A program made the position numbers and the translations under genes. From Tannerella sp. (GTDB lineage: Bacteria > Bacteroidota > Bacteroidia > Bacteroidales > Tannerellaceae), in NCBI GenBank assembly GCA_031258835.1, contig JAIRMH010000235.1:1-44294 (forward strand): a DNA stretch of 44,294 bases, written 5' to 3'. Under the pieces are notes generated by a model that was not told the origin of the DNA, searched no databases, and saw only the letters and a list, made by a program, of their open reading frames with translations. How positions within the stretch are numbered: position 1 is the stretch's first letter; each line of letters begins with the position of its first letter. Below are positions 10,805 to 44,294 of the stretch, in pieces.

Positions 10805-10814
10805 CGGTCGAATT

Positions 10815-24421: not shown

Positions 24422-24494
24422 TGGCGTCAAATAGTTGAAAAGTATAACGGCGAGCATACCCGGTGTCAGTGGCCGGACGGTAGAGGCGCTGTTT

Positions 24495-24965: not shown

Positions 24966-24998
24966 TGATAAATGATTAGAAATGAATAATTAAATATG

Positions 24999-25029: not shown

Positions 25030-25116
25030 AAACGAATAAAGATATCCGGCAAAATTCATGATTCCCGATAATCGAACATTCGGAAAACAGTTCGGATAGA
25101 TATCCGGATAAATTCA

Positions 25117-25157
25117 ATAAAAGAGAGGGCGTCCAAAAGCCTTGGACACCCTCTTTT
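25117..25157 (-). terminator. Terminator of the left SusCD operon
   Basis: A stem of about 16 pairs (25121-25136 with 25142-25157; one C/A mismatch) with a 5-base loop ends on the minus strand in CTCTCTTTTATT. The core pairs are GTCCAA/TTGGAC and GAGGG/CCCTC. The plus strand also ends in TTTT, so it may work both ways. It lies 75 bases beyond the susD stop. Confidence 0.8.
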
Positions 25158-25231
25158 CGATATGTTAAAAATACATTGGGACGATGTATTATCCCGGGCT
25201 GTTTTACGACCTGCGCCGGGACGTTTTATTG

Positions 25232-26839: not shown

Positions 26840-26866
26840 GATCTTTATTAATTAAGCGGTTACTAA

Positions 26867-29800
26867 TTAAAATGTTATATTCACTCCAAAAGAATGAGTT
26901 TTAATAAGCGGATAGGACGAGCCACGCTCGCTGGATGTTTCCGGGTCCAGGCTGATAGGCATGGCGTCCAGCGTAAATACGTTTTCTGCCGAATAATAAA
27001 CGCGCAATCTTGATATTCCGCTGCTCTTCATCAATTGAGGAGGCACGTTATAACCGACCTGCAGATTTTTCAGGCGCAGGTAGCTCGTGTTTTGCAGCCA
27101 GAAAGTAGACATCACATTCTGTGGATAGCTGTTGGAGTTAACATCATTCCAGATACGCGGCATTTTGGCGTCTTTGTTTTCGGACGTCCAGGCATCTAAC
27201 CAGATAGAGGCAGGGTGAGAGGTGTCGCCGCGGAAAGCGCCGAACACTTCCACATTGTAAATCCGGGCAACCTTTGCCGCTCCTGTGAATATCGTGGCAA
27301 AATCGAAATTTTTGTAGCCGAGATTCAGGTTAAAGCCATAAACATAGGCCGGATTAGTGGAATTGCAGATCACACGGTCATCACCGTCTATCTTGCCGTC
27401 GTTATTGGTGTCGACATATTTGATATCGCCGGCCTTGAAAGGGCGGGAGAAGAGCGTAGTGCCTGTGGATGCGTTATATTTGGCAGCAAAAGCGTCCGCT
27501 TCTTCCGGCGACTGAAAAAAACCGTCGGCCTGATATACGTAAAAAGAAGAAATAGGATGTCCGATCTGCCGGATCAAATAGCTGTCTATCATGCGTTCAA
27601 CGCCACCAAGGTTCAGAATTTCGTTTTTATTATACGAGAAATTGCCGGTAGCCGACAAGCGCCAGTCGCCCCAGCTATTGTTGTAACTTAAACCGAGTTC
27701 AACACCCCTGTTTCGCATGGCGCCTACATTGTCTTTATAAGAGCCTAAAGCAAATTCTTCCGGAGCAGGCACATCCATGATGATATCGGTCGTTTTGCGG
27801 TCGTAGATATCTATGGTTGCGTCAATATGATTTAAGAGGCCGATGTCCAGCCCTATACCATAAGTGCGCGCCTTTTCCCACGATATGGTTTCGATGTGGA
27901 AATCACTCTGGTAATATCCGCTTTGCAGCGTACCGCCAAAGGGATAGGAAGCGCCCAAATTGTACGTATTCAGGTATGGATAATAATCGTTCAAACTATC
28001 CTGATTTCCCAGTAATCCCCATGAGGCGCGGATTTTCAGGTTGTGCATCCATTCTTTAGCGTTTTCCGCAAAACCTTCTTCGCTTAACCGCCACGCCGCA
28101 GAGAAAGAGGGGAAATATCCCCAGCGGTTTTTCGGCGCAAAGCGGGAAGAGGCATCGGCGCGGAAGTTCACTTCCGCGATATATTTACCCGCATAATCAT
28201 AGTTGATGCGTCCGAATCCCGAAAGCATAGCCAATGAACGGGTATAACCGCTGTTGGTTTGCGTCGAGGTCGTACCGGCGTTGAGGTCGGTAAGGTCGTT
28301 GTTCGGGAAGTTCTTACGGCTCATACTGTTTTCGATGTTGTTGTATTTTTCCGTATGCCATCCCAGCAATACCTTTACGCCGTGCATACCGAAACGTTTA
28401 TCATAATTCAGCAGTACGTCGAAATTGGTGCGATCCCAGAGATAATAGCGTTCGTCAAGGGAGTTCGGACCGTGATATTTGTTCGGATTATACTGTATAT
28501 CTTTCAAGAAACTTTTATAATGCTGGATATTACCGGTATAAGAGCCTTGGATGGTAGCTATCATCCCGTCGAAAAACTTATAATCGGCGGAAAGAATGCC
28601 GGTAAAATTCTGGTTATACCGGTCGACGGTCTGCCCGAGATCCAGCCAGGCAATCGGATTCCCGTCGGAAACCGTTCCGTAAGAGCCGTCTTCGTTTTTG
28701 TATGGAATCCACGGAGCGATAAGATTCAATTGCCGGATGATCTGGTCGGAACCGCCTCCTACATAACTGTTGGTCGGATCTTTATAATCATTTTTAATGT
28801 AAGCCATTTTCAGCCTTACCGTTAAACGGTCTGACAATTTGATATCAAGATTAGTACGTCCGTTGAACTGCTGTCTTTCGGCGTTCGGCAAAATGCCTTT
28901 TTGCTGCAAGAACCCAACCGATGCCATATATTGAACTGTTTCAATACCTCCGCTGATATTCACATTATGATGATGTTGAAGTCCGTTCCGGTAGGCAAGA
29001 TCATACCAGTCGGTGTTTGGGTGGCCGTACGGGTCTGAGCCGTCCTGGAATTTCCGGATATCGTCGGTCGACCAGCGTTCGGCTTTTCCGTCGTCCGACA
29101 GCGCTTTGTTGAGCAAGGTGGCGTAATCGGCAGAGTTCAGCCGTTCAATCATCTGCGTAGGTTTTTGAATGCCGACATAAGCGTTGTAGTTTATTCGTGG
29201 TTCACCGGTTTTTCCGCGTTTTGTAGTGACAAGAATGACGCCGTTTGAAGCTTTCGATCCATAGATAGCAGCCGAAGATGCATCTTTCAATACGGAGATA
29301 TTTTCAATATCATTCGGGTCAAGGGAATTTAATGTTCCGCTTTCTATCCCGTCTATCAGGATATACGGATCGGCGGTATTGAGTGTTCCCACGCCGCGTA
29401 CGCGTATCGTAGCGTTATCCAGCCCCGGACGCCCCTCGCCTGATAAAACCGTTACGCCCGGCATCAGACCCTGTATGGCGGATGAGATATTCTGTATCGG
29501 ACGGTTTGACAATATTTTACTGTCTATCTGCGCTACAGAGCCGGAGAGGTTGACTTTCTTTTGTATGCCGTAACCGACGACCACCACTTCTTCGAGCGCC
29601 TGATCGTTTTCCGACAGTTTGACAAGGATCAGGCGATCGCTATTGCCTGCGACTATTTCCTGTGTGAGATAGCCGACATAAGAAATAACCAATACGGGAT
29701 TGGACGAGGTTGTCGATAAGTTAAAATGACCGTCTACGTCGCTTGTCGTTCCTGTCGTTGTCCCTTTTATGATTATATTCGCTCCAATAACCGGCTCGTT

Positions 29801-30229
29801 CATGTCGTCCGTTATGATTCCTCTTATCGTTCTTGATTGTTGCTGAACGGTTGTTTCCATAGCGGGTTCTTTTTGCGAGATGAATATTTGCCGGTCGTCA
29901 ATGACGTAAGTGTTATCGGTCGATTCAAATAAGCGGTCTAAAATTTTGTCAACCGTTTTGTTCTTCGCACGAATACTTACGATGCGATCTATATCCAAAA
30001 CATCATCGTAATAAAAGAAGATATATTCGCTGTTTTTTTCTATCTCATCAAAAACTTCTTTTACCGATTTGTTATTTAATGAAATAGATAAGCGGGTCGA
30101 TTGAGAATATGTCACAGTGGCGCTGCTTGCTCCTATCCCTATGAACAAAAAGATAAGCAATAATCTCATAATTCTTATTGTTTTTTTTACATTAGCGCTA
30201 AACAGGCTATTTTTTAATAGATTTGTCAT
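26867..30229 (-). CDS. SusC/RagA family TonB-linked outer-membrane transporter with STN domain (left system)
   Basis: 1120 residues. After a signal peptide, an STN signalling domain spans about 45-115 (LSISLNNKSVKEVFDEIEKN, FYYDDVLDIDRIVSI), typical of transporters that talk to a FecR anti-sigma. A carboxypeptidase-regulatory domain follows (~133-210; IRGIITDDMNEPVIGANIII), then the SusC signature plug segment (EEVVVVGYGIQKKVNLSGSV; ISVLKDASSAAIYGSKASNG) and a beta-barrel ending in FGVNITF. It imports large ligands with SusD using TonB energy. Upstream lie fecR and an ECF sigma gene. The 129-bp gap before it contains a candidate antisense RNA whose -7 box overlaps this gene's start. Confidence 0.95.
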   Translation of the reverse strand: MTNLLKNSLFSANVKKTIRIMRLLLIFLFIGIGASSATVTYSQSTRLSISLNNKSVKEVFDEIEKNSEYIFFYYDDVLDIDRIVSIRAKNKTVDKILDRLFESTDNTYVIDDRQIFISQKEPAMETTVQQQSRTIRGIITDDMNEPVIGANIIIKGTTTGTTSDVDGHFNLSTTSSNPVLVISYVGYLTQEIVAGNSDRLILVKLSENDQALEEVVVVGYGIQKKVNLSGSVAQIDSKILSNRPIQNISSAIQGLMPGVTVLSGEGRPGLDNATIRVRGVGTLNTADPYILIDGIESGTLNSLDPNDIENISVLKDASSAAIYGSKASNGVILVTTKRGKTGEPRINYNAYVGIQKPTQMIERLNSADYATLLNKALSDDGKAERWSTDDIRKFQDGSDPYGHPNTDWYDLAYRNGLQHHHNVNISGGIETVQYMASVGFLQQKGILPNAERQQFNGRTNLDIKLSDRLTVRLKMAYIKNDYKDPTNSYVGGGSDQIIRQLNLIAPWIPYKNEDGSYGTVSDGNPIAWLDLGQTVDRYNQNFTGILSADYKFFDGMIATIQGSYTGNIQHYKSFLKDIQYNPNKYHGPNSLDERYYLWDRTNFDVLLNYDKRFGMHGVKVLLGWHTEKYNNIENSMSRKNFPNNDLTDLNAGTTSTQTNSGYTRSLAMLSGFGRINYDYAGKYIAEVNFRADASSRFAPKNRWGYFPSFSAAWRLSEEGFAENAKEWMHNLKIRASWGLLGNQDSLNDYYPYLNTYNLGASYPFGGTLQSGYYQSDFHIETISWEKARTYGIGLDIGLLNHIDATIDIYDRKTTDIIMDVPAPEEFALGSYKDNVGAMRNRGVELGLSYNNSWGDWRLSATGNFSYNKNEILNLGGVERMIDSYLIRQIGHPISSFYVYQADGFFQSPEEADAFAAKYNASTGTTLFSRPFKAGDIKYVDTNNDGKIDGDDRVICNSTNPAYVYGFNLNLGYKNFDFATIFTGAAKVARIYNVEVFGAFRGDTSHPASIWLDAWTSENKDAKMPRIWNDVNSNSYPQNVMSTFWLQNTSYLRLKNLQVGYNVPPQLMKSSGISRLRVYYSAENVFTLDAMPISLDPETSSERGSSYPLIKTHSFGVNITF

Positions 30230-30241
30230 ACATTTGTACTG

Positions 30242-30315
30242 ATTTTAGTTAATAACTCTTTTTTGATTTTAAAGTCACTACCGGATGATATGGAGGTATC
30301 GTCCGGTTTTTTTTA
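30242..30315 (+). ncRNA. Candidate antisense small RNA opposite the left susC leader (DonS-like)
   Basis: On the plus strand, opposite the operon, a -7 box TACATTTG (30229-30236) overlaps the susC start region. Transcription would begin near 30242. A strong intrinsic terminator follows: ACCGGATGATA (30280-30290) pairs with TATCGTCCGGT (30297-30307) as 11 pairs with one G-U, a 6-base loop, then eight T (30307-30314). The RNA would be about 73 nt, fully complementary to the susC leader. DonS RNAs of Bacteroides fragilis have this size and location and repress their SusC operon. No -33 box is seen; expression is inference. Confidence 0.6.
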
Positions 30316-30358
30316 TATCGAGGTGTCATATCCGGTTTTTATCCATAGGCAAATAGTT

Positions 30359-31591: not shown

Positions 31592-31612
31592 TTTGATTAT
31601 TTTATAGTTCAA

Positions 31613-32221
31613 TTATTGAGATTCGGAACGCATTTTTTTGATAAAAGCCTTTTGTTTTTCTTTTTCGGCAAGCGCCGAACGTAATTTTTTTATAGAACGT
31701 TGCAACAAGTTTTGTACCGATTGATAATTCATATCCATAATTTCGCCGATGTGATTCAGTTTTAATCCTTTTGTATAACGGTAGTAGATCACTTCTTTCT
31801 GGCGTGGAGTGAGCGTTTCCAATACTTTATTGATTTTATTTCTGCGTTCCTGCTCCAGTTCGTTCTCTATCCATTCGTCTTCGATGGTGTATTCAACTGT
31901 AAAAACAGGTTCTATGGTGTCCATCTTATATAAAGATTTGTCTTTTTCAAAAACGTTGAACAGGATGTTTTTAAGAGCGATGAAAAGATAAAGTTTTACA
32001 TTGTCCGTACAACTCAGGTTTGAACGGTTGCTGTATATTTTCACGAAAAGATCCTGAATGCAGTCTTTTATCAGTTCCTTGTCCGACGTAAAACGCATGC
32101 CGTAAGAAAAGAGTTCTTCCACATATTGCCGGTAAAGATATGAGTAAGCGTCCTCGTCTCCGGCGAGAATCTTCTCCCATAACAGGCTCTCATCAATGGT
32201 ATAAACGTTTCGAGTAGACAT
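31613..32221 (-). CDS. ECF-type RNA polymerase sigma factor (left system)
   Basis: 202 residues. Region 2 covers about 25-95 (DAYSYLYRQYVEELFSYGMR, IKDCIQDLFVKIYSNRSNL), and region 4 about 130-190 (TLTPRQKEVIYYRYTKGLKL, NYQSVQNLLQRSIKKLR). This is the Bacteroidales sigma-70 family linked to FecR and SusC. It should direct transcription of the susCD genes when released from the anti-sigma. A basic, Lys-rich tail (EKEKQKAFIKKMRS) follows. It is the first gene of its operon; an inverted repeat lies 73 bases upstream. Confidence 0.94.
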   Translation of the reverse strand: MSTRNVYTIDESLLWEKILAGDEDAYSYLYRQYVEELFSYGMRFTSDKELIKDCIQDLFVKIYSNRSNLSCTDNVKLYLFIALKNILFNVFEKDKSLYKMDTIEPVFTVEYTIEDEWIENELEQERRNKINKVLETLTPRQKEVIYYRYTKGLKLNHIGEIMDMNYQSVQNLLQRSIKKLRSALAEKEKQKAFIKKMRSESQ

Positions 32222-32293
32222 ATTTCAGGTTTTTATTGGCGTCAAATATTGCATGTTATATTTCCGATCAGGCATTTTTAGCGTGAGCAACCT

Positions 32294-32328
32294 GCTTGGA
32301 CAAACATATTGTCTATGTTCGTCCAAGC
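32294..32328 (-). promoter_or_regulatory. 15-bp inverted repeat upstream of the left ECF sigma gene
   Basis: GCTTGGAC (32294-32301) pairs with GTCCAAGC (32321-32328), and after one mismatch AACATA pairs with TATGTT around a 5-base loop. No T-run follows on either strand, so it is unlikely to be a terminator. Its place upstream of the sigma gene suits a dimeric regulator operator or a structured leader. Confidence 0.6.
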
Positions 32329-32582
32329 AAATCAATCGCGCAATCTTTGTAATATAGTTCATATAAATTACTTTATATAGAAAACAGCTGTAAAATTAAA
32401 ACATACTCACTTTTGTGAAAATTTTTATGTATGTTAAAAAACATATTCCCAATTTTTCTTATTCCTGAAACTAAAAACCGGAAAACAAAAACACGGATAG
32501 AACAGATCTCGGACTGAATAGCATATCAAAAAAAAAGATTTAGCTTTTACGGTAATTTTTTTACAGCATCAAAAATATTTGA

Positions 32583-32590
32583 TAATTTTG
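32583..32590 (+). promoter_or_regulatory. -7 box of nuclease copy 2
   Basis: TAATTTTG matches TAnnTTTG 33 bases before the ATG. The upstream region is A/T-rich but has no exact TTTG at 18-21 bp. Confidence 0.45.
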
Positions 32591-32623
32591 TAGCCTGTAA
32601 TAACATAACGAAGATAAAGAAAT

Positions 32624-33688
32624 ATGGAAACAAAAGACGTAAGCAGAAAATCAGTAAAACGGTTTATCATCGCGAATCCGATATACGATACGGTGTTTAA
32701 ACGCTTGATGGAAAATCGGCGGATAGCGAAATTTTTTATCAGTGCCATACTCGAACAGCCCATAGAGGACTTACAGGTACTGCCGCAAGAGTTCTCATAT
32801 AAACTTGACGAGACGAAAGTGCCGGACAGAGACAGGGACAATGGAAAAGAGAAAGACGGGGAGAAAGACAACGCTCAGTATTTTTATGCTTTCTTCCGGT
32901 TAGATTTCATGGCCACCATTCGCGACAGCAAAGGCAACCTTCGCAAGATATTGATAGAACTCCAAAAATCATGGGAAACGTTAGATGTGATACGTTTCCG
33001 GAAATATCTCGGAGAGCAGTATAAAAGAGTGGATATCATAGACGGAAAGGAGACAGTCCTGCCGATAACAACCATCTATATACTGGGCAACAATCTTGCC
33101 GAGATAGACTGTCCTTGCATTAAAGTAGGCCGTACCTACACCGACATGCTCAATAAGAAACCTATAAATACAAAGTCGAAATTTATAGAAAACCTTACCC
33201 ATAACAGTTATGTCATTCAGGCAGGCAGAATCACGGATGTGCGTTACACTACAAACCTCGATAAGTTACTCAGCATCTTTGAACAGCGGTATTTTATAAA
33301 AGAAGATTCGGTGGCAAGAAAAGAATACCCATATCAACCCGATGATGAAGATATGACACTTATCACCGATCTGCTTTACGAAATTGGAGCAGACCCCAAA
33401 GAACAAAAACAGATAGAAGATGAAGAAGAGGCTTTGCGTATTATTAACAACGTGAAAGATCCTCTTAAAAGATCACTCGAAGAGAAAGAGAAAACGATCG
33501 AAGAACAAGCCAAATCGCTCGAAGAGCAGGCTAAAACAATTGAAGAACAAGCTAAATCGCTCGAAGAAAGTAAGAAAAAACTCGAAGAACAAGCTAAATC
33601 GCTCGAAGAAAGTAAGAAAAAACTCGAAGAGCAAGCGAAAAAAATTGCAGAAGTGGAACGTCTTCTTCAGGATAAACAAATTGAATAA
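32624..33688 (+). CDS. PD-(D/E)XK nuclease family protein (Rpn/transposase-like), copy 2
   Basis: 354 residues, a clear paralogue of the protein at 157-1149. Shared blocks include IANPIYDTVFKRLMEN, PQEFSYK, RLDFMATI (Asp94), IELQKSW (Glu112-x-Gln114-Lys115), VIRFRKYLGEQYKRVD, VLPITTIYILG and THNSYVIQAGRI. Catalytic residues are intact. The last ~70 residues form a heptad-repeat coiled coil, longer than in copy 1. A charged insertion (DRDRDNGKEKDGEKDN) splits the N-terminal part. It stands alone between two head-to-head nutrient-uptake operons, with its own promoter and terminator. Function may be DNA cleavage or recombination; no flanking inverted repeats were found. Confidence 0.85.
   Translation: METKDVSRKSVKRFIIANPIYDTVFKRLMENRRIAKFFISAILEQPIEDLQVLPQEFSYKLDETKVPDRDRDNGKEKDGEKDNAQYFYAFFRLDFMATIRDSKGNLRKILIELQKSWETLDVIRFRKYLGEQYKRVDIIDGKETVLPITTIYILGNNLAEIDCPCIKVGRTYTDMLNKKPINTKSKFIENLTHNSYVIQAGRITDVRYTTNLDKLLSIFEQRYFIKEDSVARKEYPYQPDDEDMTLITDLLYEIGADPKEQKQIEDEEEALRIINNVKDPLKRSLEEKEKTIEEQAKSLEEQAKTIEEQAKSLEESKKKLEEQAKSLEESKKKLEEQAKKIAEVERLLQDKQIE
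33500..33646 (+). repeat. Seven 21-bp heptad repeats in nuclease copy 2, including a 42-bp tandem duplication
   Basis: Seven consecutive 21-bp units begin GAAGA and encode E-E-Q-A-K-S-L or E-E-S-K-K-K-L heptads. Within them 33548-33589 and 33590-33631 are a 42-bp tandem duplication that differs only at the last base, so it is recent. Unit length preserves frame and coiled-coil register. Confidence 0.9.
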
Positions 33689-33807
33689 GTTTATAGTGAA
33701 CAGCGTGTTTTGTAAACATTTATATTGTGTCGTATATCTCCGGTTCTCCGGCAGGACAAACTCGTAAATTGTCCGGATTGTGCGGCGTCATAACTATTAA
33801 TTTTAAA

Positions 33808-33855
33808 GACATATTCTCTTCATGTTGAAACTATGAGTGTAGAATATGCCTTTTT
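33808..33855 (+). terminator. Terminator of nuclease copy 2
   Basis: CATATTCT (33810-33817) pairs with AGAATATG (33841-33848), with an inner TCAT/ATGA pair of segments, followed by TTTTT (33851-33855). Confidence 0.65.
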
Positions 33856-33979
33856 AATCAATAAAAACCGGATGAGAACTGCAAAGCATGAACAGAAATA
33901 TATTTTTTTTCTACATTAACCGGTGTTTGGTAAATAAAAAAGTAACAGAATATTCGTTATACTTTAACGAAATAACTTG

Positions 33980-33987
33980 TATATTTG
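33980..33987 (+). promoter_or_regulatory. -7 box abutting the right ECF sigma start (possibly leaderless)
   Basis: TATATTTG, a perfect -7 box, ends only seven bases before the ATG at 33995. Transcription from it would begin at or within a base or two of the start codon, giving a leaderless mRNA. Confidence 0.55.
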
Positions 33988-33994
33988 TCCCGTT

Positions 33995-34573
33995 ATGTTT
34001 CAGGATAAAAATGCTTACACCGCTTTTTCGTCTGTTTTTGAACGATATAAAAAGCCTTATGTGTTATTTGCTTATTCATATATCAGAGATATGGATGAGG
34101 CGGAGGATATTTATATGGATGTGATGTTGCATTTCTGGGAAAACCGCGACAGACTGCCGGAAGACCTTCATATCCCGTCTTATTTGCTGGCCGCTGTGAA
34201 AAACCGGGCGCTTAACTACCTGCGGCATCGGCAAGTAATATCAGATACGCATAGCGGTTTGCTGGAGCATGAACAGCGGGAATTAAACTTTCGTATTTCG
34301 ACGCTCGAAGCGTGTGAACCATCTCAATTGTTTGCCGACGAAATAAAGCACATAATAGACGACACGTTGAACCACATGCCGGAACGGACGAAAGTGATAT
34401 TTTTTATGAGCAGATATGAAAATAAAACCAACAAAGAGATTGCACAAAAACTAAGTTTGAATATTAAAACAGTAGAATACCATATCGGCAAAGCGCTGAA
34501 AGCGCTCAGAACCAACCTGAAAGATTATTTGCCGCTTTTTTTTATCGGATTGATGTATCATGGATTGAAATAA
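33995..34573 (+). CDS. ECF-type RNA polymerase sigma factor (right system)
   Basis: 192 residues from the ATG at 33995; the frame extends six codons to a TTG, which overlaps the -7 box and was rejected. Region 2 (about 10-75) has YKKPYVLFAYSYIRDMDEAE and DIYMDVMLHFWENRD; region 4 (about 125-180) has MPERTKVIFFMSRYENKTNK and NIKTVEYHIGKALKALR. It is the Bacteroidales FecR-linked sigma type. The C terminus is unusually hydrophobic (YLPLFFIGLMYHGLK). It starts the right-hand uptake system and reads away from the left one. Confidence 0.93.
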   Translation: MFQDKNAYTAFSSVFERYKKPYVLFAYSYIRDMDEAEDIYMDVMLHFWENRDRLPEDLHIPSYLLAAVKNRALNYLRHRQVISDTHSGLLEHEQRELNFRISTLEACEPSQLFADEIKHIIDDTLNHMPERTKVIFFMSRYENKTNKEIAQKLSLNIKTVEYHIGKALKALRTNLKDYLPLFFIGLMYHGLK

Positions 34574-34700
34574 GCGTTATTCAATTTTCAACGGAAATTT
34601 GAATAGTTGGATTTTTCCAAAAAAAAGTCACATTTATGTTTAGGGTATTATCCGTTTCGCGTGTTATTAGGCTATAAAGGATAAATTACTTAATGAGTAG

Positions 34701-35654
34701 ATGGAAAAAGAGCAGATGGAAAAAGAACTGTTGTATAAATATTTTTCAGGCGAGGCGAACCCTGTTGAGGAAAAAGAAATAATCGATTGGGCGGAATCTT
34801 CTTCGGAAAATTATCGTATGTATTTAAAGGAAAGAGAATTTTGGAATGCTGTTTTGGTAAATTCTGCCGAAATTTCAACACGAGAAATAGCCGATACGAA
34901 AAAACGACCGGCGAAAATAAATATCCGGCAGTTTACGATGATTGCAGCTTCTGTTGCCTTGTTGGTGTTCTTTTTATATCCGCTCATCAGCTCTGATAAA
35001 CACAGTGAGGAATGGCAATCGGTATGGGCGCCTCCCGGCCAACGGACGCGGATTGTGCTGAACGACAGTACGGTGGTGTGGTTAAATTCGCAGTCTACGC
35101 TCACGTTTCCATCTGTTTTCAATTCGAATATCCGTAAGGTTAAATTAGATGGAGAAGGATATTTTGAAGTGAAAAAGAGAGGGGAAAAAACGTTTGTTGT
35201 CCAGACGTCACATTATGATATTTCTGTCTTGGGGACGAGTTTTAATGTGTTTGCCTATGAAAATAAGGCCGCATTTGAGACTTCTTTGTTAGAGGGTTCT
35301 GTCGAGATTTCGCATAAAAACAAAAATATTCCTGTCGTTCGTTTGTCGCCGAATGAAAGGATCACCGCAATAGACGGACGGTTGGTGAAGAGTAAGATTC
35401 ATAATTTCGACCACTTTCGGTGGAGAGACGGCCTTATATGCTTTGATGGGGAGCCGTTCGAGAGTATGATGGAGAAATTTTCCCTCTACTTCGATATATC
35501 TATTAAAATTGAAAATCCTGCGTTATTGGAATATTGCCCGACCGGTAAGTTCCGTCACAGCGACGGTATAGAGCATGCCTTGAATGTACTTAAACGGGAT
35601 TTACGTTTTACGTACAGCCGTAATCACGAAAATGATGAGATAGTTATACGATAG
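34701..35654 (+). CDS. FecR-family anti-sigma factor (right system)
   Basis: 317 residues, a typical length. The N terminus (MEKEQMEKELLYKYFSGEAN, EEKEIIDWAESS) is the cytoplasmic sigma-binding part. A single membrane segment follows at about 75-95 (FTMIAASVALLVFFLYPLI). The periplasmic FecR domain contains APPGQRTRIVLNDSTVVWLN and GEGYFEVKKRGEKTFVVQT, with SVLGTSFNVFAYEN. The C-terminal DUF4974 region ends DLRFTYSRNHENDEIVIR. It keeps the sigma factor off RNA polymerase until SusC contacts it. It lies 127 bases after the sigma gene and 152 bases before susC. Confidence 0.94.
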   Translation: MEKEQMEKELLYKYFSGEANPVEEKEIIDWAESSSENYRMYLKEREFWNAVLVNSAEISTREIADTKKRPAKINIRQFTMIAASVALLVFFLYPLISSDKHSEEWQSVWAPPGQRTRIVLNDSTVVWLNSQSTLTFPSVFNSNIRKVKLDGEGYFEVKKRGEKTFVVQTSHYDISVLGTSFNVFAYENKAAFETSLLEGSVEISHKNKNIPVVRLSPNERITAIDGRLVKSKIHNFDHFRWRDGLICFDGEPFESMMEKFSLYFDISIKIENPALLEYCPTGKFRHSDGIEHALNVLKRDLRFTYSRNHENDEIVIR

Positions 35655-35705
35655 TTATTCACATTTAAAAGATGATGCCTATGAGAAACAACATGTAAGA
35701 TGCTG

Positions 35706-35794
35706 AAAAAAAAAGACCAAAGAGCGCTACCAACGCTCCTTGGCCGCGTTAATCCAAGATTGACTTTATTTACCTTAGTATTAACAAAAAATTC
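35706..35794 (-). ncRNA. Candidate antisense small RNA opposite the right susC leader (DonS-like)
   Basis: On the minus strand a -7 box TAATTTTG (35807-35800) overlaps the first base of the susC ATG. Transcription would start near 35794. The RNA would end at a strong intrinsic terminator: minus-strand GGCCAAGGAGCG (35745-35734) pairs with CGCTCTTTGGTC (35726-35715), 12 pairs with two G-U, a 7-base loop, then nine T (35714-35706). Length is about 89 nt, entirely complementary to the susC leader. The arrangement mirrors the left system. No gene on this strand otherwise needs a terminator here. Confidence 0.65.
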
Positions 35795-35806
35795 GATTAC
35801 AAAATT

Positions 35807-38800
35807 ATGGAAAAAAATCATTGTGGAATTTTTTCTGTGTTAATAATTCACAGAAAGTGTAAATTGTTACGTATTATGAAGTTAGCCTCTATTTTACTTT
35901 TTGTCTTTGTCTTTACTATCATAGCGAAAAATGTATATTCGCAGGATGCCAGAGTTTCCATAAATAAGGAAAATACCGTTATACAGGAAATTCTGGACGA
36001 GATAGAAAATCAGACGGACTATCTTTTCCTTTATAACAAGAAAAGTGTGAATGTGAACCGACAAACTACAATTAAGGAGTCGAATACTCCTGTTGCGAGA
36101 GTGTTGGAAAATCTATTTGACGGAACCGGGGTGATATCCGACATGGTGGGGAATCATATTGTTCTTACGAGCCGGTCTGAAAATAAACAGGAACCCCGCG
36201 AACAGCAGCAAGGCCGTGTTCGTATTACCGGAACGGTTACGGATGAATACGGCGAACCGGTGGCCGGGGCTAATGTTGTGGAGAAAGGTGTTACGAATGG
36301 CGTTATAACGGATCTTGACGGCAAATATGTGATTCATGTTTCGGAAGGCGCTGTTTTGTTGATATCGTATATAGGATATGTTTCGCAGGAGGTGACGGTT
36401 GGAAATCAGCGTGTCATTAACGTTACTTTAGATGAAGACATCCGGATTATGGACGAGGTAGTGGTTATTGGATATGGTACGGTAAAACGAGCGAATCTTA
36501 CCGGCGCTATTTCTACTGCCGATGCCCAAACTTTCCGCTCGCGTCCTGTTCAGAATGCGGCGAATGCGCTACAGGGCGAAGTGCCGGGACTTACGGTCAT
36601 ACGGACAAGCGGAGCGCCGGGCAGCAGTCCGGTGGTAAGAGTGCGCGATGTATCGTCGATCAACGGCGGGTCGCCATTGATACTTATTGATGGTGCGGAA
36701 GGTGATTTGAACACCGTCAACTCTGCCGATATCGAAAATGTGTCGGTGTTGAAAGACGGTACGGCAGCTATTTATGGCGCCCGTGCTGCCGATGGGGTGA
36801 TATTGATTACTACAAAAAATGCGAAAAGGAATCAAAAACTGAAAATTTCTTTTGACGCCTATTATTCGATAAAAAAACCGGCGTTACTGAGGAAACCGGC
36901 CGGTTTATACGAACATGCCCTGATGGCGTTAGAGATCACCGACGGCTCGTTCCCGATTGAATATACGGAAGACGAATTGCAATTAATACTGGAAGGCAGC
37001 GATAAAGTTCTTCCTGCCGGCAACTGGGGACGATGGTCGGGCTATGAGAAATTTTATAAAAACCAGAATTGGAACGATCTTATAATAGGCAATGGTAGCC
37101 TGCAAAATTATAATGTAGCGCTTTCCGGCGGTGGCGAGAAATATTCATATCTTATTTCATTAGGCTATCAACACGAAGAAGGCTTGCCCAAATTCGGAAA
37201 AGACAGCGACGAGAGGTATTTTGTACGCGCCAAGTCGAATATTGAGATCGTTAAAAATTTGCAGTATGACATAAATCTCTCTTATGAAGCCAGCAGCAGG
37301 GATTATTCTTCCGGTATAAGCGAAGGGCAGAATATATGGGAACTGATATATAAAACGCGTAGCTGGGCGCCTCTGCGCAATCCGGCAGGTAATTTTTATA
37401 CCTTCGAAGGATTTGATAATCCGGCGCAACTTCTTGAAGACGGCGGATTTTCTAACTTGACAACCGGGAACTTTACCATCAACAACCAATTAAGTTGGCA
37501 ACCGCTGAAAGACCTTAATATAATCGGACGTGCGGTAATTCGCAAGAGCGATAAGGACAAGAATGTGATCCGCAAAATGCTTTATAGCTATAACTGGGAA
37601 AACGTAAATCACAGGACGGCGCGAACACCGAACAGTGCGGAATGGAATTACGGGAAAACATTGTTGAAAAATTTTACCTTATATGCGGACTATAAGAAAT
37701 CCTTAGGAAAACATGATATCGGTGTAATGGCCGGTATTGCGAACGAATCTGCGGATTATGACTATTTTTCGGCTAAACGTATTAATTTCGACCAGCAGGA
37801 GAACATGTCTCTTCAATTGGGCAGTTCGGAAAATCAAACGGCTTATAGTGAGGGAAATGCCTGGACGATTAACTCGTTTTTCTCCCGCTTAAGCTATTCT
37901 TTTGCTAACAAATATATGATTGACGGTGTCTTGCGTGCAGACGGCAGCTCCCGTTTCCATCCGGATCATCGCTGGGGTTATTTTCCCGGCATATCGGCTG
38001 CATGGCATTTTAATGAAGAGAAATTCATGAAAGATTTGAATATTTTTGATGAACTTAAATTTAAAGCGTCTTATGGCGAAATGGGGAATCAGTCGGGTAT
38101 CGGGCTTTATGATTATATACAGTTGGTGTCAATAAGCAGTAGTTATTATCCTTTTGGAAACGGACAAAAAGCACAGATGGCCAGTCCCGGAAATATCGTT
38201 TCTATTTCGAGAACGTGGGAAACGATAGAATCTATTGATGCAGGATTGGAATTTGCCGCATTGAAAAACAGGCTATTCGGTTCTTTCGACTATTTTTGGA
38301 AAGAAAACACAAATATGTTGATACCGGTTACCTATCCTTCCATGCTGGGCGCCGATGCTCCCAGAACAAACAGCGGAAGTCTCGAAATTAAAGGATGGGA
38401 GATTGCTCTTGGCTGGAGGGATCGGGTTGGCGATTTGAGTTATTCGATAAAAGGCAGCCTTAGCGACGCCCGGAATAAAGTAGTAGAAAGGGTAGGTAGT
38501 AATATCATTACGCACGGCTTGAATGCAACGCCTACGGGTTATCCTCTTAGCTCATGGTTCGGATATGTTTTTGACGGAATCATCCAAAACGAACAGGAAT
38601 TGGCGGAATATGAAGCCCGTTTCCCGAACGGAGGGATTCCAGGACACGGAGATTTGTCGATTGGCGACGCCAAATATAAAGATCTGGATAACGACGGAAA
38701 GTTGACGGTTCTTGGTGATGATCCTGAAAACGGCACCGGCGATGTGGTTTATCTGGGAAATACAAATCCCCGGTATAATTTCGGGTTAAATCTTGGCGCC

Positions 38801-39247
38801 GAATATCGCGGCTTTGATTTTTCCACGTTCATTCAAGGGGTCGGCGATCGGACGATATTCCTTGAAGGCGATGCGGATAAGCCATTTGCCCAACCATGGT
38901 TCCAATCTGCAGAATATTGGTTTGGAAAGACCTGGACGGAGGATCGGACGGATGCTAAATATCCGGCGATTACAAATAAAGGCAAGAGGAGTTATAACTA
39001 TTATATTTCATCAAATACAAAACATAACGTAGCCTATATGCGTCTTAAAAATTTGCAGGTCGGATATACGATTCCTGAAAAATATGTGCGGAATCTGAAG
39101 ATGGAAAAGATAAGGCTGTATTTCAGCGGAGAGGACTTGTATGAGATACATAATGCACCCGGAGGATGGGATCCTGAAGATGGTGGAGGATTTACCGGTT
39201 ATCCGTTTGCAAGGAATTTTTCATTTGGCGTGAATGTTGTTTTCTAA
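35807..39247 (+). CDS. SusC/RagA family TonB-linked outer-membrane transporter with STN domain (right system)
   Basis: 1146 residues. The signal peptide is internal to a long basic start (hydrophobic LASILLFVFVFTIIA, then VYSQ). An STN domain lies at about 45-120 (VIQEILDEIENQTDYLFLYN), a carboxypeptidase-regulatory domain at about 140-215 (ITGTVTDEYGEPVAGANVVE), then the plug with DEVVVIGYGTVKRANLTGAI and SVLKDGTAAIYGARAADG, and a beta-barrel ending FSFGVNVVF. It imports a large ligand captured by SusD. Same gene order as the left system, but the barrel is clearly divergent, so a different substrate is likely. susD follows after 22 bases. Confidence 0.95.
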   Translation: MEKNHCGIFSVLIIHRKCKLLRIMKLASILLFVFVFTIIAKNVYSQDARVSINKENTVIQEILDEIENQTDYLFLYNKKSVNVNRQTTIKESNTPVARVLENLFDGTGVISDMVGNHIVLTSRSENKQEPREQQQGRVRITGTVTDEYGEPVAGANVVEKGVTNGVITDLDGKYVIHVSEGAVLLISYIGYVSQEVTVGNQRVINVTLDEDIRIMDEVVVIGYGTVKRANLTGAISTADAQTFRSRPVQNAANALQGEVPGLTVIRTSGAPGSSPVVRVRDVSSINGGSPLILIDGAEGDLNTVNSADIENVSVLKDGTAAIYGARAADGVILITTKNAKRNQKLKISFDAYYSIKKPALLRKPAGLYEHALMALEITDGSFPIEYTEDELQLILEGSDKVLPAGNWGRWSGYEKFYKNQNWNDLIIGNGSLQNYNVALSGGGEKYSYLISLGYQHEEGLPKFGKDSDERYFVRAKSNIEIVKNLQYDINLSYEASSRDYSSGISEGQNIWELIYKTRSWAPLRNPAGNFYTFEGFDNPAQLLEDGGFSNLTTGNFTINNQLSWQPLKDLNIIGRAVIRKSDKDKNVIRKMLYSYNWENVNHRTARTPNSAEWNYGKTLLKNFTLYADYKKSLGKHDIGVMAGIANESADYDYFSAKRINFDQQENMSLQLGSSENQTAYSEGNAWTINSFFSRLSYSFANKYMIDGVLRADGSSRFHPDHRWGYFPGISAAWHFNEEKFMKDLNIFDELKFKASYGEMGNQSGIGLYDYIQLVSISSSYYPFGNGQKAQMASPGNIVSISRTWETIESIDAGLEFAALKNRLFGSFDYFWKENTNMLIPVTYPSMLGADAPRTNSGSLEIKGWEIALGWRDRVGDLSYSIKGSLSDARNKVVERVGSNIITHGLNATPTGYPLSSWFGYVFDGIIQNEQELAEYEARFPNGGIPGHGDLSIGDAKYKDLDNDGKLTVLGDDPENGTGDVVYLGNTNPRYNFGLNLGAEYRGFDFSTFIQGVGDRTIFLEGDADKPFAQPWFQSAEYWFGKTWTEDRTDAKYPAITNKGKRSYNYYISSNTKHNVAYMRLKNLQVGYTIPEKYVRNLKMEKIRLYFSGEDLYEIHNAPGGWDPEDGGGFTGYPFARNFSFGVNVVF

Positions 39248-39269
39248 TTATACTTAATGTTACAAAATC

Positions 39270-40940
39270 ATGAAAAAATATATATATTATAGACAAACGA
39301 TTTTTATCGTCGCATTGTTAACTGTAGCGGGTTGTCAGGATATAGATTTGTTACCTAAAGACAATCTGCCGGATCAGTTGTTCTGGAAAACCCCTGCAGA
39401 CTATGCGAAAGAAGTAAATCAGTTATATAGCAGAACTGAAACTTTCGGCACAAAAGATACGGACAGCGATATCGGATTCGAATTGAATACAAATAACGTC
39501 AGTAATGGGACGTTTAGTGCTCCTAATTCCGACAGTGAGTGGTCTGACCGTTTTGCCGATTTGCGGCAATGCAATACCATTATCGAAAAAAGCGAATCGT
39601 ATGAGGGTGGCTTTGCCGAAATAGAACGTTATGTTGCGGAAGCGCGTTTTTTCAGGGCGTATACCCATTGGCGTCTGATGAAAAGATTCAATGAGATACC
39701 CGTTTTGACAAAACCCCTGACGATAGAATCTCCCGAATTATATGGCGGCAGAATACCGCAAAAGGAAGTGGAGGATTTTATACTTTCGGAACTCGAAGCC
39801 ATATATGCCAAATTGCCGAAACAAAGCGAATTGAAATCCAACGAGACAGGGCGTGTCACACAGGGCGCCGCGTTAGCGCTTAAAGCGCGAGTAGCCCTGT
39901 TCGCCGGTACATGGGCTAAATATCATCAGCATCGTACGGACTATCAGCAATTGTTGGAGCAGGCAATACAAGCGGCGCAACGCCTTATCGACAGTAAAGA
40001 GTATACTTTATTTGAAGATAAAGATGCTGAAAGTTACCGTTATTTGTTTATCGACGAAGGAGATAATGCCGCGGAAGAAATATTCGGAAGCCGTTATTAT
40101 GACGATATACGCGTACATGGAACGGCACATTCCGTATTTTGGGGTTGGAGAGGTACGCCGACGAAAAAAATGGCGGATATGTATCTCTGTAAAACATCCG
40201 GCCTGCCGATTGAACATTCTAATTCCGGGTTCCGTGGCTATGAAAAGATAACGGATGAATTTGAAGATCGCGATCCGAGGATGTCGCAGACGATCCTTAT
40301 GCCCGGAACGCCATACCGGAATGCACAGCACGGTCCGGATGTCTGTTCGTCGAAATTCACTACGCGACCGGAAACGAGAACCGGTTATAAACTGTGGAAG
40401 TTTATGGGAGAAGTTTTCGGTAAACCGTCGGACAAAGACTCCTACGATTATCATATCATACGTTATGCGGAAGTACTGCTGATATTGGCCGAAGCGACAT
40501 TTGAAAAAGACGAAAGCGTCAGTGATGATGTCCTGAATAAATCAATCAATGTTGTCCGTTCAAGGAAAGGCGTCGAGATGCCTCCACTCACAAATCAATT
40601 TGTTCGGGATAACGGCTTGGACATGCAGACGGAGATTCGCCGGGAACGGACCGTCGAACTTGCTTTCGAAGGATTCAGGCGCGATGACCTCAGACGTTGG
40701 AAAACGGCGGAAACCGAATTGAAAAAAGCAATCATGGGAATAAAGTATACGGGTACCGAATACGAAGAACAACAGGCTCTGAACGATGGTTATTCCGGAT
40801 TGATAGATGCAGATGGATTCCTCGTTATAGAACCGGAAGAAAACCGTTTCTTTACCGTTCCTAAACATTATTATTATTCGCTTCCTTTGGATGAGTTGTT
40901 TCTGAATCCGAATTTAGTGCCTAATAATCCGGGATGGTGA
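39270..40940 (+). CDS. SusD/RagB family nutrient-binding outer-membrane lipoprotein (right system)
   Basis: 556 residues. Lipobox LLTVAGC follows a hydrophobic signal. TPR-type N-terminal helices include YVAEARFFRAYTHWRLMKRF and the C-terminal signature is YHIIRYAEVLLILAEATFEK, RRERTVELAFEGFRRDDLRR, ending FLNPNLVPNNPGW. It forms the lid of the SusC channel and binds substrate at the surface. It is followed 60 bases later by the first of two paralogous exported proteins, presumably in the same transcript. Confidence 0.94.
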   Translation: MKKYIYYRQTIFIVALLTVAGCQDIDLLPKDNLPDQLFWKTPADYAKEVNQLYSRTETFGTKDTDSDIGFELNTNNVSNGTFSAPNSDSEWSDRFADLRQCNTIIEKSESYEGGFAEIERYVAEARFFRAYTHWRLMKRFNEIPVLTKPLTIESPELYGGRIPQKEVEDFILSELEAIYAKLPKQSELKSNETGRVTQGAALALKARVALFAGTWAKYHQHRTDYQQLLEQAIQAAQRLIDSKEYTLFEDKDAESYRYLFIDEGDNAAEEIFGSRYYDDIRVHGTAHSVFWGWRGTPTKKMADMYLCKTSGLPIEHSNSGFRGYEKITDEFEDRDPRMSQTILMPGTPYRNAQHGPDVCSSKFTTRPETRTGYKLWKFMGEVFGKPSDKDSYDYHIIRYAEVLLILAEATFEKDESVSDDVLNKSINVVRSRKGVEMPPLTNQFVRDNGLDMQTEIRRERTVELAFEGFRRDDLRRWKTAETELKKAIMGIKYTGTEYEEQQALNDGYSGLIDADGFLVIEPEENRFFTVPKHYYYSLPLDELFLNPNLVPNNPGW

Positions 40941-41000
40941 TGTATTTGCAATGATTGAGATGCCGAAAGAAAGAAGGAAATTCATCATAAAATAAATTGT

Positions 41001-42359
41001 ATGAGACGAAAACTGATTTTTATAGCAATCGCGACGGTATTCTTTGTGCCGGATATTTTATTTGCTTCCGGTAAGGGACTGGGAGAGAACGTGACGCCCG
41101 ATAAATTGATGGGAAACCGGTTTCTTACCCTGAATACAGTCATTAGGGTAAATCAGATTGAAGTTACCCGTGACAGGTATGTCGGTAATGACGAACGTGA
41201 TATGCACACTCCCGAAAGGGTTATTGCATTTCGTGAAGCCGTTTCCTCCGAATTTCCCGGAGCAAGGATTACATGGGCTTTTAGCTGGCTGGCGCTGCAT
41301 GATAATTCTGATAATTATAAGAAGATAAGGGAATTAGTTGTCGGTTATCATTATCTGTATGGCGATGATATCACCTTCATTCCGGGCGCGTATTTTGCAA
41401 ATGCATATAACAGCAGAGAGCAGGTAAATAAGGATTTGCACGAGGGGCTGGCAAAAGTCGGCGAGATGGTGGGCGGCGGTTTTCGTCCGAAAAGCGTAGT
41501 TGCCGGATTCCTGGCTGCTGAAAACCAGCTATATCTTGCCGAAAAAGAAAATATCCATGTTTGTCAGGGTAATATATGGAGCCAGTTTTCTATTGATAAT
41601 CAGGATGGCGACGGCGCGGTCTCTTATCCCTTTTATCCTTCTAAGGAACATTTTTGTAAACCTGCGCAGGGAAAGGATGATTTTATAGACTGCGTAAACC
41701 TGGATGGCTGGACAGTAGATTTCCTGGCGGCCAGAAGGGATGGTTTTACCGATGGTTTTAACAGCCGTATGGGGGTGGGGCCGATAGAAACGCTACTTGC
41801 ATATGGGAAGTTGATTGGTTTGAGCCAAATGATGCATACGACAGGCGTACATTATGACCGGGGATTCGACCTGAACGGCTTTGCCTGGGTAACGAACTGC
41901 TGGGAATTATCCTTGCCGATTGATATTTCGGGGTTGAAAGACTGGTTGAATGAGATTAAAAGGCGCTGGCCGGATGTTCGGTTTATTACACAAGGCGAAT
42001 TCGGATTGTTATGGAGGGAACATTACAAAGAAAATTCGTTCGATTATCGATTTGAACAGAAAGGTTCGGGCATCGGAGGATCCGATATCAATATGGAAAT
42101 ACGTTGGTTTATGAACAAAGATTTCCGATTGGCGCTGCTGAAAGACTGGCAGAAGACCCGGAATGAATCTGTGATTGATTTTACTAATTACAGTGAGAAG
42201 GCGGAAGAGCCTCAAGTAATGACCCGTAAATGGAGCTTGCTGGGTGAGATCAATCAGAAACAAAGTCGTCCGCAGGATAAGCCGAAAGCTATCAGTAAAT
42301 TATCCGGCGACGCTGTTTCATTAGTCAGGAAGCATTATCCTTATTTGCTTAATGATTAA
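41001..42359 (+). CDS. Exported protein of unknown function, paralogue A (probable DUF3863/DUF3864 type)
   Basis: 452 residues with a signal peptide (MRRKLIFIAIATVFFVPDIL, then FASGKG). I believe it belongs to the Bacteroidales family with Pfam domains DUF3863 and DUF3864, but I cannot confirm this. Conserved blocks shared with the next gene: GNRFLTL near 38, EVTRDRY, ARITWAFSWLAL, YPFYPSKEHFCKPAQG, FIDCVNLDGWTVDF, MHTTGVHYDRGFDLNGFAWV and EIRWFMNKDFRLALLKDW. Invariant Asp, Glu, His and Trp residues suggest an enzyme, perhaps a TIM-barrel glycan hydrolase or deacetylase (speculative). It is the third exported product of the right uptake operon, which fits a degradative role. The gene ends 31 bases before a strong terminator. 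Confidence 0.75.
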   Translation: MRRKLIFIAIATVFFVPDILFASGKGLGENVTPDKLMGNRFLTLNTVIRVNQIEVTRDRYVGNDERDMHTPERVIAFREAVSSEFPGARITWAFSWLALHDNSDNYKKIRELVVGYHYLYGDDITFIPGAYFANAYNSREQVNKDLHEGLAKVGEMVGGGFRPKSVVAGFLAAENQLYLAEKENIHVCQGNIWSQFSIDNQDGDGAVSYPFYPSKEHFCKPAQGKDDFIDCVNLDGWTVDFLAARRDGFTDGFNSRMGVGPIETLLAYGKLIGLSQMMHTTGVHYDRGFDLNGFAWVTNCWELSLPIDISGLKDWLNEIKRRWPDVRFITQGEFGLLWREHYKENSFDYRFEQKGSGIGGSDINMEIRWFMNKDFRLALLKDWQKTRNESVIDFTNYSEKAEEPQVMTRKWSLLGEINQKQSRPQDKPKAISKLSGDAVSLVRKHYPYLLND

Positions 42360-42390
42360 AAGCAGATCTAACATGTTATTATGTACTTTT

Positions 42391-42442
42391 TAACCGGTTA
42401 TTTGTTGATGCAAAAAGTTTGCAAATAACCGGTTATTTTTTT
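42391..42442 (+). terminator. Strong terminator between the two paralogous genes
   Basis: TAACCGGTTATTTG (42391-42404) pairs perfectly with CAAATAACCGGTTA (42422-42435), a 14-bp stem with a 17-base loop, followed by a run of seven T. It ends about 30 bases before the next ATG, leaving little room for an independent promoter, so it may attenuate rather than stop transcription. Confidence 0.85.
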
Positions 42443-42471
42443 ATATCATATGGTTTTAATTCTTATTTTTT

Positions 42472-43986
42472 ATGAAGTGTATTATAGGAGATTATAGCAG
42501 TGTTTTTTTTGAAAGAATATTAAGGTTGTTTATGGCCGTGTTATTCATGCAAATAAACATTATGCGTGCGGATGCGAAAGGGGTGGCCGGCTCTTTAGTA
42601 AATGGAGTGATCCCGGCGGAAGATTTTTATGTTAATGCGGATGATGGAGCTTGTTCGTTTGTTAGGGATTCGCTTACGTTGACGGGCAACAGGTTTGTTA
42701 CGCTTTGTATAATGATACGTACGACACCCTGGGAAGTGTCGAGGGACGTAAAACTTCATCCGCGCGATGAGGCGGACTGGCATACGCTTGAAGGAGTGCG
42801 CGCTTTAAGAGAGGCGTTTGCGAAAAATAATCCCGGCGGGCGACTTACCTGGGGTTTTACCATGAATGCGCTGGAAGATCAGAGAGAAAACTTCAGGCAA
42901 ATACGTGAATATGTTGTGGAATGTCAAAAGAGGTATGGTGACGAAGTGACTTATTTTCCCGGATATTTTCCGGCAATGTATCTGCCACGTGAACAGGTAA
43001 ATCGCGAGATATCGGAAGCTATCGGTATTATTTCGAGAATGATAGGCGACGGATATCGGCCACAGTCTGTTATCGGAGGTTTCCTGTCGGCAGACAATCT
43101 GAAATATCTTGCGGAAAAAGAAGATATACATACGGCGCATGCTGTAATCTGGAGTCAACATAACATTGATGGAGGCGGAGCTGACGGCTCTCCGTCGTAT
43201 CCTTTTTATCCTTCTACGGAACATTTCTGCAAACCTGCTCAGGGAGAAGAAGATTTTATTGATTGTGTAAATCTGGATGGGTGGACGATGGATTTTATCT
43301 GTGCCCGCAGAAGCGGCGCTAATGGGCACGGTATAGAAGGTTATAACAGTCGTCGCGGTGTTGGCCCTATTGAGACATATAAGGGGTGGGGACTGGAACT
43401 CGGCCATCGTGAAGTGATGCATACGCAGTCTATCCATTTCGACAAAGGTTTTCAATTGAATGGATTCGGATGGGTGACCAATATATGGGAGGCTCAACTT
43501 GTTCATGAATATGGGAAGGACTTTATTTGCAATGCTATGGAGATGTGGGTGACGGATACGAAAAAACGCTGGCCTGACACCTATTTTGTGACTTTTGGCG
43601 AGTATGGGAATATCTGGAGGCGACAATACAGGACAAACGACGACTGGAATTACCGGTTTGTGGAGCGAGGATCCGGATTGGGAGATTCATATAATAATCT
43701 TGAAATCCGTTGGTTTATGAATAAAGAGTTTCGTCTGGCGCTATTGCGGGACTGGCATAAAAGAAAATCGCCCGCCTGTGTAATAGACTTTACCCGTTAT
43801 GACCTGAAGACGGAAGAACCGGCAGACCCTTCTCCCGGAAAACCCGTAAAAGACTGGAGTCTTATAAACGTTATGAACCAGAAAGGATTAAGGCCGCAGG
43901 ATGCACCCAAGCCGATAACTGAACTGCGCATGGAAGACCGGGAACTTATAAAAAAATACTATCCGGAGTTGTTTGAAAATCAGTGA
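42472..43986 (+). CDS. Exported protein of unknown function, paralogue B (probable DUF3863/DUF3864 type)
   Basis: 504 residues. It is closely related to the protein at 41001-42359 through most of its length: GNRFVTLCIMIRTTPWEVSR, GRLTWGFTMNAL, YPFYPSTEHFCKPAQG, FIDCVNLDGWTMDF, MHTQSIHFDKGFQLNGFGWV and EIRWFMNKEFRLALLRDW. A hydrophobic N-terminal segment (LFMAVLFMQINIM) is probably a signal peptide, with an extra ~45 residues before the shared core. A Gly/His-rich insertion (GANGHGIEGYNSRRGVG) lies mid-protein. Tandem duplication with divergence suggests two activities on related substrates (inference). Expression may depend on read-through of the terminator 30 bases upstream. Confidence 0.75.
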   Translation: MKCIIGDYSSVFFERILRLFMAVLFMQINIMRADAKGVAGSLVNGVIPAEDFYVNADDGACSFVRDSLTLTGNRFVTLCIMIRTTPWEVSRDVKLHPRDEADWHTLEGVRALREAFAKNNPGGRLTWGFTMNALEDQRENFRQIREYVVECQKRYGDEVTYFPGYFPAMYLPREQVNREISEAIGIISRMIGDGYRPQSVIGGFLSADNLKYLAEKEDIHTAHAVIWSQHNIDGGGADGSPSYPFYPSTEHFCKPAQGEEDFIDCVNLDGWTMDFICARRSGANGHGIEGYNSRRGVGPIETYKGWGLELGHREVMHTQSIHFDKGFQLNGFGWVTNIWEAQLVHEYGKDFICNAMEMWVTDTKKRWPDTYFVTFGEYGNIWRRQYRTNDDWNYRFVERGSGLGDSYNNLEIRWFMNKEFRLALLRDWHKRKSPACVIDFTRYDLKTEEPADPSPGKPVKDWSLINVMNQKGLRPQDAPKPITELRMEDRELIKKYYPELFENQ

Positions 43987-44294
43987 TTGGCTTTATATAT
44001 CGCCTTCGTCCGAAACGGGATACCCTGAAAAACAAACAGGCTGGGGAAACGCAGTACCGAAGATAGTACCATTGCGACGCCAAAAATTCATCAGATGTTT
44101 CTATGGCGCAGTCCCGACAGATCTCTTTGCCGACATGGAGTATACCGCGGCATGCCGGATTGAAAATTATGTATTATTATGTATTATTAACAAAATCGGT
44201 TTGCATCGGATTAAGAGTATGTCTATCTTTGTGGTCTGTGTCTGTTGAATATAATAAAAAGGCCATTACGATAAGATTTTTGATAATTCTACAT
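43987..44294. other. Intergenic end of the window with an outgoing promoter
   Basis: No gene is supported in these 308 bases. A -33/-7 pair near the right edge points out of the window; no terminator for the preceding gene is evident. Confidence 0.6.
44200..44231 (+). promoter_or_regulatory. Promoter reading out of the right edge
   Basis: TTTG (44200-44203), a 20-bp spacer, then TATCTTTG (44224-44231). Both boxes are perfect and spacing is ideal, so a plus-strand gene or RNA probably starts beyond position 44240. Confidence 0.65.

Follow-up and report, generated by a model that had tools for sequence, protein, structure and literature searches.

A candidate DonS-type antisense RNA gene opposite a susC start codon in Tannerella sp., with a putative micro-ORF at its far end

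Does the leader of a susC homolog in Tannerella sp. carry, on its opposite strand, a gene for a short antisense RNA, and by what means might such an RNA restrain SusC? The question is raised by the right-hand one of two SusC systems in the window (the whole stretch of 44,294 nucleotides analysed here), which lie in opposite orientations with a FecR gene upstream in each, and for which an initial annotation had proposed RNAs resembling DonS. DonS and the other PUL-associated cis-antisense RNAs of Bacteroides go back to Cao et al. 2016 (cited via PMC7366714, PMC10994844, PMC11697453 and PMC9723704). As far as the accessible parts of these papers describe it, the family comprises cis-antisense RNAs of 78–128 nt divergent to susC homologs (PMC7366714), with 32 PUL-linked members in B. 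thetaiotaomicron (PMC10994844) and such RNAs at 15 PULs in B. fragilis (PMC9723704). Repression has been demonstrated for one such RNA of B. fragilis, and antisense RNA and PUL anticorrelate for several pairs, some B. thetaiotaomicron pairs correlating positively (PMC10994844). The mechanism of DonS itself is stated to be not known (PMC11697453), and functional work has been called for (PMC10994844). Judged from sequence, it is very probable that the start of the right susC faces a gene for a short antisense RNA on the other strand.

Table 1. Genes and predicted regulatory features of the two SusC systems (window positions)
Feature	Positions	Strand	Basis or detail
Right system: ECF sigma factor	33977..34573	+	Pfam Sigma70_r2, Sigma70_r4_2
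FecR-type anti-sigma factor	34701..35654	+	Pfam FecR, FecR_C
GCCTATG and micro-ORF MRNNM-stop	35677..35698	+	ATG 35681-35683, TAA 35696-35698
Nine-T tail of antisense terminator	35706..35714	-	
Antisense terminator hairpin, 12 bp, loop UUGGUAG (U-turn type YUNR)	35715..35745	-	
5' hairpin of predicted antisense RNA	35747..35786	-	folding
Predicted antisense RNA, 90 nt, complementary to susC leader	35706..35795	-	TSS inferred at 35795
Antisense -7 box TAATTTTG (consensus TAnnTTTG)	35800..35807	-	overlaps A of susC ATG
susC homolog with STN domain, TonB-dependent transducer type, antisense target	35807..39247	+	Pfam Plug, CarbopepD_reg_2, STN
susD homolog	39270..40940	+	Pfam SusD_RagB
Two neighbouring DUF3863/DUF3864 genes 3' of susD	41001-43986		
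Left system: susC homolog with STN domain	26867..30229	-	ORF, Plug, STN
Antisense -7 box TACATTTG, over susC ATG	30229..30236	+	
Predicted antisense RNA, about 75 nt	30241..30315	+	terminator 30280-30307, box 30229-30236
GCCTATG and micro-ORF MDKNRI-stop	30326..30350	-	pattern match 30227-30350

The genes and putative regulatory features are collected in Table 1. On the minus strand of the right system TAATTTTG, which read as CATAATTTTG spans the susC ATG at 35807-35809, was found where a -7 box had been proposed, and it matches TAnnTTTG, the -7 consensus of the housekeeping sigma factor (sigma-ABfr; PMC7366714). With the transcription start site set 5 nt past this box, after the placement of TAnnTTTG at -12 to -5 in Flavobacterium psychrophilum (PMC9723704), the predicted RNA measures 90 nt, where about 89 nt had been claimed, and folds into two hairpins (-31.4 kcal/mol, z -5.45). 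The second of these is the 12-bp terminator with nine T of the initial annotation; it has 14 pairs including G-U and 12 without the two apical pairs (-20.5 kcal/mol, z -5.5), and is the first-listed terminator-like site in the scanned 20 kb (24300-44294). At the level of sequence the element is thus antisense and divergent to a PUL susC, carries TAnnTTTG at -7 and ends in an intrinsic terminator. The proposed likeness to DonS appears sound, position, predicted length, box, terminator and PUL linkage all matching the published family. No CAAA peak corresponding to a -33 TTTG element was seen in the expected stretch of the leaders, and this element was not treated as defining because it is likewise not identifiable in F. 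johnsoniae (PMC7366714). A sigma-70 promoter scan returned 43 sites against 43.9 expected and is uninformative for this phylum. At Rfam gathering thresholds the whole window gave tRNA and SAM-II only, the antisense RNA matching no described family; the SAM-II riboswitch (10812-10871) precedes an ORF at 10943, and a strong hairpin with a T-rich tail lies on the minus strand at 25124-25154, downstream of the ORF at 25232-26839.

The left system is a mirror image of the right layout, with a terminator loop that lacks the U-turn motif. As the initial annotation had it, the two terminators are unrelated in sequence and alike in position, and they keep their strand as well; its further claim, that the architecture is selected rather than copied recently, is supported by 72 distinct terminators of the leader set described below, which likewise keep place and strand, by five loci with related SusC proteins (64-82% identity) and by two compensatory stem changes in one of these. 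The five loci, L031 (Porphyromonadaceae UBA8128), L032 (Parabacteroides faecis), L033 (Prevotella sp. 10(H)), L034 and L035, all have both the CAAAnnTATG start and the antisense terminator, and the loss from close relatives that had been named as evidence to the contrary was not seen. Compared with the right stem, that of the nearest relative L031, to which this comparison is confined, keeps 12 of 12 pairs through two double and three single changes; a MAFFT alignment of the five leaders was of no use beyond L031, as its input comprised stretches downstream of the leader for L033 and L035 and a stretch cutting the hairpin for L034. The L034 ORF that begins at the ATG of CAAAnnTATG stops after 63 codons, perhaps through a contig error.

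The pattern GCCTATG-N105..135-CAAAnnTATG, with the pattern read backwards as control, occurs nine times forward and never backwards in the own genome (86% complete, 354 contigs), and one extra copy of the layout, C347, was thereby found beside another FecR gene. Four genomes reached via L031, L033, L034 and L035 hold 24 matches versus 2 backwards, and two further genomes of the order 14 and 11 versus 0 and 1. Wider samples were near chance when scored by genomes with a match: 46/247 versus 44/247 backwards in the phylum, where a second control pattern matched 23/247, and 53/197 versus 43/197 backwards in the order, where about 100 matches versus 50 backwards left a surplus confined to few genomes. 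The pattern is insufficient alone in distant genomes, and adding the hairpin and the ORF split true from chance loci: 8 of the 29 non-own loci of the phylum search combine a long susC-like ORF with an antisense terminator, all eight from one family (f30) outside the order.

Altogether 139 distinct pattern places were collected, with a long ORF starting at 92 and a short ORF at 47. An antisense terminator is present at 74 of the 92 (72 distinct hairpins) and at 8 of the 47, two of the latter (L034, 63 codons; L192, 128 codons) having a SusC-like start and looking interrupted or cut. Forty places were hand-picked from search matches, among them 13 of the 14 of G439 (one repeat dropped) and 10 of the 11 of G386, the remainder being chosen mostly by a visible A-run hairpin. 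Results without L253-L279 were alike, with a short micro-ORF in 54/55, loops of 6-7 nt in 50/55 and a U-turn on either strand in 33/55. The RNAs predicted from the 72-leader set are of two-hairpin form, 75-129 nt long with a median of 91 nt; the right RNA falls within the 78-128 nt of the DonS family, the left one measures 75 nt, and three of the 72 are barely outside. In the SusC proteins of the 74-leader set the n-region is long, at about 20 residues (window 35807-35878 for the right susC), and in 65/74 a second in-frame Met stands immediately ahead of the signal-peptide core, as at 35876 in the right susC, making a dual translation start possible in these proteins.

At the far end of the layout, the ATG of GCCTATG opens a putative micro-ORF. 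An in-frame stop follows within six codons in 73/74 leaders, at codon positions 1 to 6, as compared with 26 and 19 leaders in the shifted frames, a mean of 27 and a maximum of 44 in 2000 base shuffles, 12/39 pattern places with a short ORF and no terminator, and 14/72 further GCYTATG occurrences in a 398 kb portion of the own genome; in the single exception, L099, the retrieved sequence contains no FecR. In the sense direction, a median of 10 nt separates the stop from the 3' end of the antisense RNA that follows (7 nt in the right system). No peptide is conserved among the micro-ORFs, MK, MI, M and ME being commonest, so that the act of translation and not the peptide should matter. A competing interpretation, which we hold to be a serious if doubtful one, takes GCCTATG as the -10 of an ECF promoter, the sense mRNA beginning a few nt later and no micro-ORF starting there. 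In its favour, GCCTATG is preceded by an A-tract, from -11 to -7, and by a weak bias towards AA/AC, from -18 to -16, a spacing that would suit an ECF promoter; two leaders, L010 and L118, lack GCYTATG and have no short ORF in the corresponding place. The interpretation is opposed by the frame-specific stops spread over six codon positions, and by L029 and L032, likewise GCYTATG-less, in which GGAGG is followed by ATG-AAT-TAA and ATG-TAA. With L087 and L017, where an ATG opens 4 and 8 codons, these make up the 6/79 leaders with box, long ORF and terminator that are without GCYTATG.

The own genome also holds 15 non-FecR susC leaders with GCYTATG, with a stop after 2-9 codons in 13, and the micro-ORF is therefore more widespread than the antisense gene. 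GCCTATG micro-ORFs of 5-9 codons were noted at L040, L045, L051, L062, L092, L102, L120, L141, L142 and L148, at distances of 97-216 nt ahead of susC genes that have neither FecR nor the antisense box. GGAGG precedes the micro-ORF ATG in L029, L032, L043 and L258, and any Shine-Dalgarno-like word was seen there in 3/74 leaders; this is unusual, Shine-Dalgarno sequences being reportedly absent from the mRNAs of Bacteroidetes (PMC7366714). No description of a micro-ORF in such leaders was found among the open-access full-text papers listed: the micro-ORF is the part not found in print, the kind of antisense RNA having already been published.

As to the terminator loop, YUNR is reported in the recognition loop of either partner where antisense pairing begins loop to loop (PMC4485353, PMC6562991). 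RNAfold closes G-U pairs and lone A-U pairs within loops, and such weak apical pairs were therefore peeled, controls being treated alike; only 398 kb of the own genome supplied the control terminators, and the leader set spans many genomes. Peeled loops measure 6 or 7 nt in 65/72 leaders versus 95/317 controls. Loops that begin with YUNR number 30/72 on the antisense strand, and on either strand 44/72 versus 32/317 controls (3/24 for controls behind an ORF); counted anywhere in the peeled loop it occurs in 25/72 versus 61/320. The U-turn motif is missing from both strands in 28/72 loops and is present on either strand in 5/10 loops of the own genome. The loops as closed by RNAfold gave no excess of YUNR (10/74 antisense versus 53/320 controls), for which reason the apparent constraint on the loop, hinging as it does on how loops are defined, is graded a lead.

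We consider it likely that the right-hand element is a DonS-type cis-antisense RNA gene that restrains SusC by pairing with its leader. Transcribed by the housekeeping sigma factor when the glycan is absent, the RNA would pair with the susC leader, first via the complementary loops of the terminator hairpin, the U-turn loop among them, and the resulting duplex would extend over the leader to within about 12 nt of the susC ATG, block ribosome access and mark the mRNA for decay. Glycan would free the ECF sigma factor, sense transcripts would come to outnumber the antisense RNA, and sense polymerase crossing the start-codon promoter would silence it, with a threshold switch as the outcome. At the mRNA 5' end, just outside the duplex, the micro-ORF probably serves to load or park a ribosome; this is the least certain step of the scheme. 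Transcriptional interference would account for part of the same layout: polymerase setting out from the susC ATG would meet sense polymerase, the antisense promoter would matter and the RNA itself would not, and the terminator would only halt it ahead of the micro-ORF and fecR. A promoter box on the start codon and an RNA 3' end stopping just short of the micro-ORF both fit such a mechanism. It predicts neither a constrained terminator loop nor a folded 5' part, and the part ahead of the terminator has a mean z of -2.55 on the antisense strand versus -0.92 on the sense strand (72-leader set), so that interference by the promoter alone seems to us improbable.

The strand on which the leaders fold bears on pairing as the favoured reading. 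Terminator hairpins are stabler on the antisense strand in 68/72 cases and contain 138 G-U pairs in the antisense fold versus 17 in the sense fold, part of this strand bias being expected of hairpins chosen on the antisense strand (control terminators are stabler on their own strand in 79/98). Whole leaders folded without picking are lower on the antisense strand in 87/92, and because these unpicked leaders and the 5' part both favour the antisense strand, structure has most likely been selected on the antisense RNA. That the hairpin is instead a sense-strand leader element, an attenuator or stabiliser with the T-run and box as by-products, is in our view very unlikely: the right sense hairpin does still form (-11.6 kcal/mol), but the G-U pairs, the unpicked leaders and the co-occurrence of box and hairpin all go against it.

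How far box and terminator belong together was assessed in the own genome on 122 of 148 Plug matches, the others being dropped for low score or contig edge. The box lies exactly on the ATG of 12/23 FecR- or STN-type susC genes versus 3/99 others (Fisher 3.5e-8), and in the 119 leaders with at least 125 nt upstream the antisense terminator accompanies 12/14 leaders with the box versus 5/105 without (Fisher 5e-11). Either element alone is no more than chance: CATANNTTTG is not rare, with 4 occurrences in the window versus 2.3 expected. It is their combined occurrence that exceeds chance. That promoter and terminator are functionless products of chance in an AT-rich leader, a view to which the 57 occurrences of TANNTTTG in the whole window (38 expected from shuffles) and terminator-like sites in non-FecR leaders (antisense 19/99, sense 18/99) would lend themselves, is hardly credible given the fixed box position, the co-occurrence with the terminator and the retention of the layout in related loci and in the 8 loci of the family outside the order.

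The statement that two of two systems carry the arrangement holds for the window and does not extend to the genome. Among its 19 FecR-linked leaders the box is at the ATG in 10, an antisense terminator lies anywhere in -300..+60 in 11, and both parts are in canonical place in 8; the complete layout is thus missing from 11/19, which counts against the explanation that we prefer. In four non-FecR leaders of the own genome (L041, L052, L058 and L063) a similar antisense hairpin with a T-rich tail was seen at about -68 to -18 together with an antisense TAnnTTTG at +4, within the coding start; such antisense RNAs may form a second class, shorter than the first.

Among known systems the DonS family is closest, sharing the cis-antisense position divergent to susC, the housekeeping-type box and a length (78-128 nt versus 90 nt here); the genus is another, and the likeness is drawn to the published description and not to the DonS sequence. 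Three features of the present layout, the box on the start codon, the loop with its U-turn and the micro-ORF, do not appear in the accessible parts of the DonS-family descriptions. FopS and GibS, sRNAs of B. thetaiotaomicron, likewise target the translation start region of susC mRNA, but are described as using short seeds, several mRNAs and RbpB, whereas the RNA predicted here is fully complementary to its own leader (PMC11697453). Plasmid and toxin-antitoxin antisense RNAs share the YUNR U-turn in the recognition loop, on either strand; there it has been experimentally shown in a few systems, whereas here it is a loop statistic only, and in pMV158, which is without a YUNR motif, kissing is not critical (PMC4485353, PMC6562991). 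The uORF of E. coli topAI-yjhQ resembles the micro-ORF as a short reading frame ahead of a regulated gene (PMC12121999, in the part available); in contrast, the micro-ORFs here have 1-6 codons and no conserved peptide, and nascent-peptide sensing is therefore unlikely.

For the wider family, the layout offers a search rule that needs no RNA-seq, GCCTATG-N105..135-CAAAnnTATG followed by an A-run hairpin and a long susC-like ORF, and it reduces the question of DonS-type repression to three elements, box, loop and micro-ORF. We give an even chance to the broader proposal that one cassette is common to transducer-type susC genes from two or more orders of the class, made up of a micro-ORF of 1-6 codons, a two-hairpin antisense gene with a U-turn terminator loop and a promoter box fused to the susC start codon, in which a ribosome ties the ECF switch to the antisense brake. 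If this is true, the ribosome on the micro-ORF would sit beside the landing site of the antisense RNA, and an upstream reading frame nearly free of peptide would, when translated, couple the ECF switch and the antisense brake.
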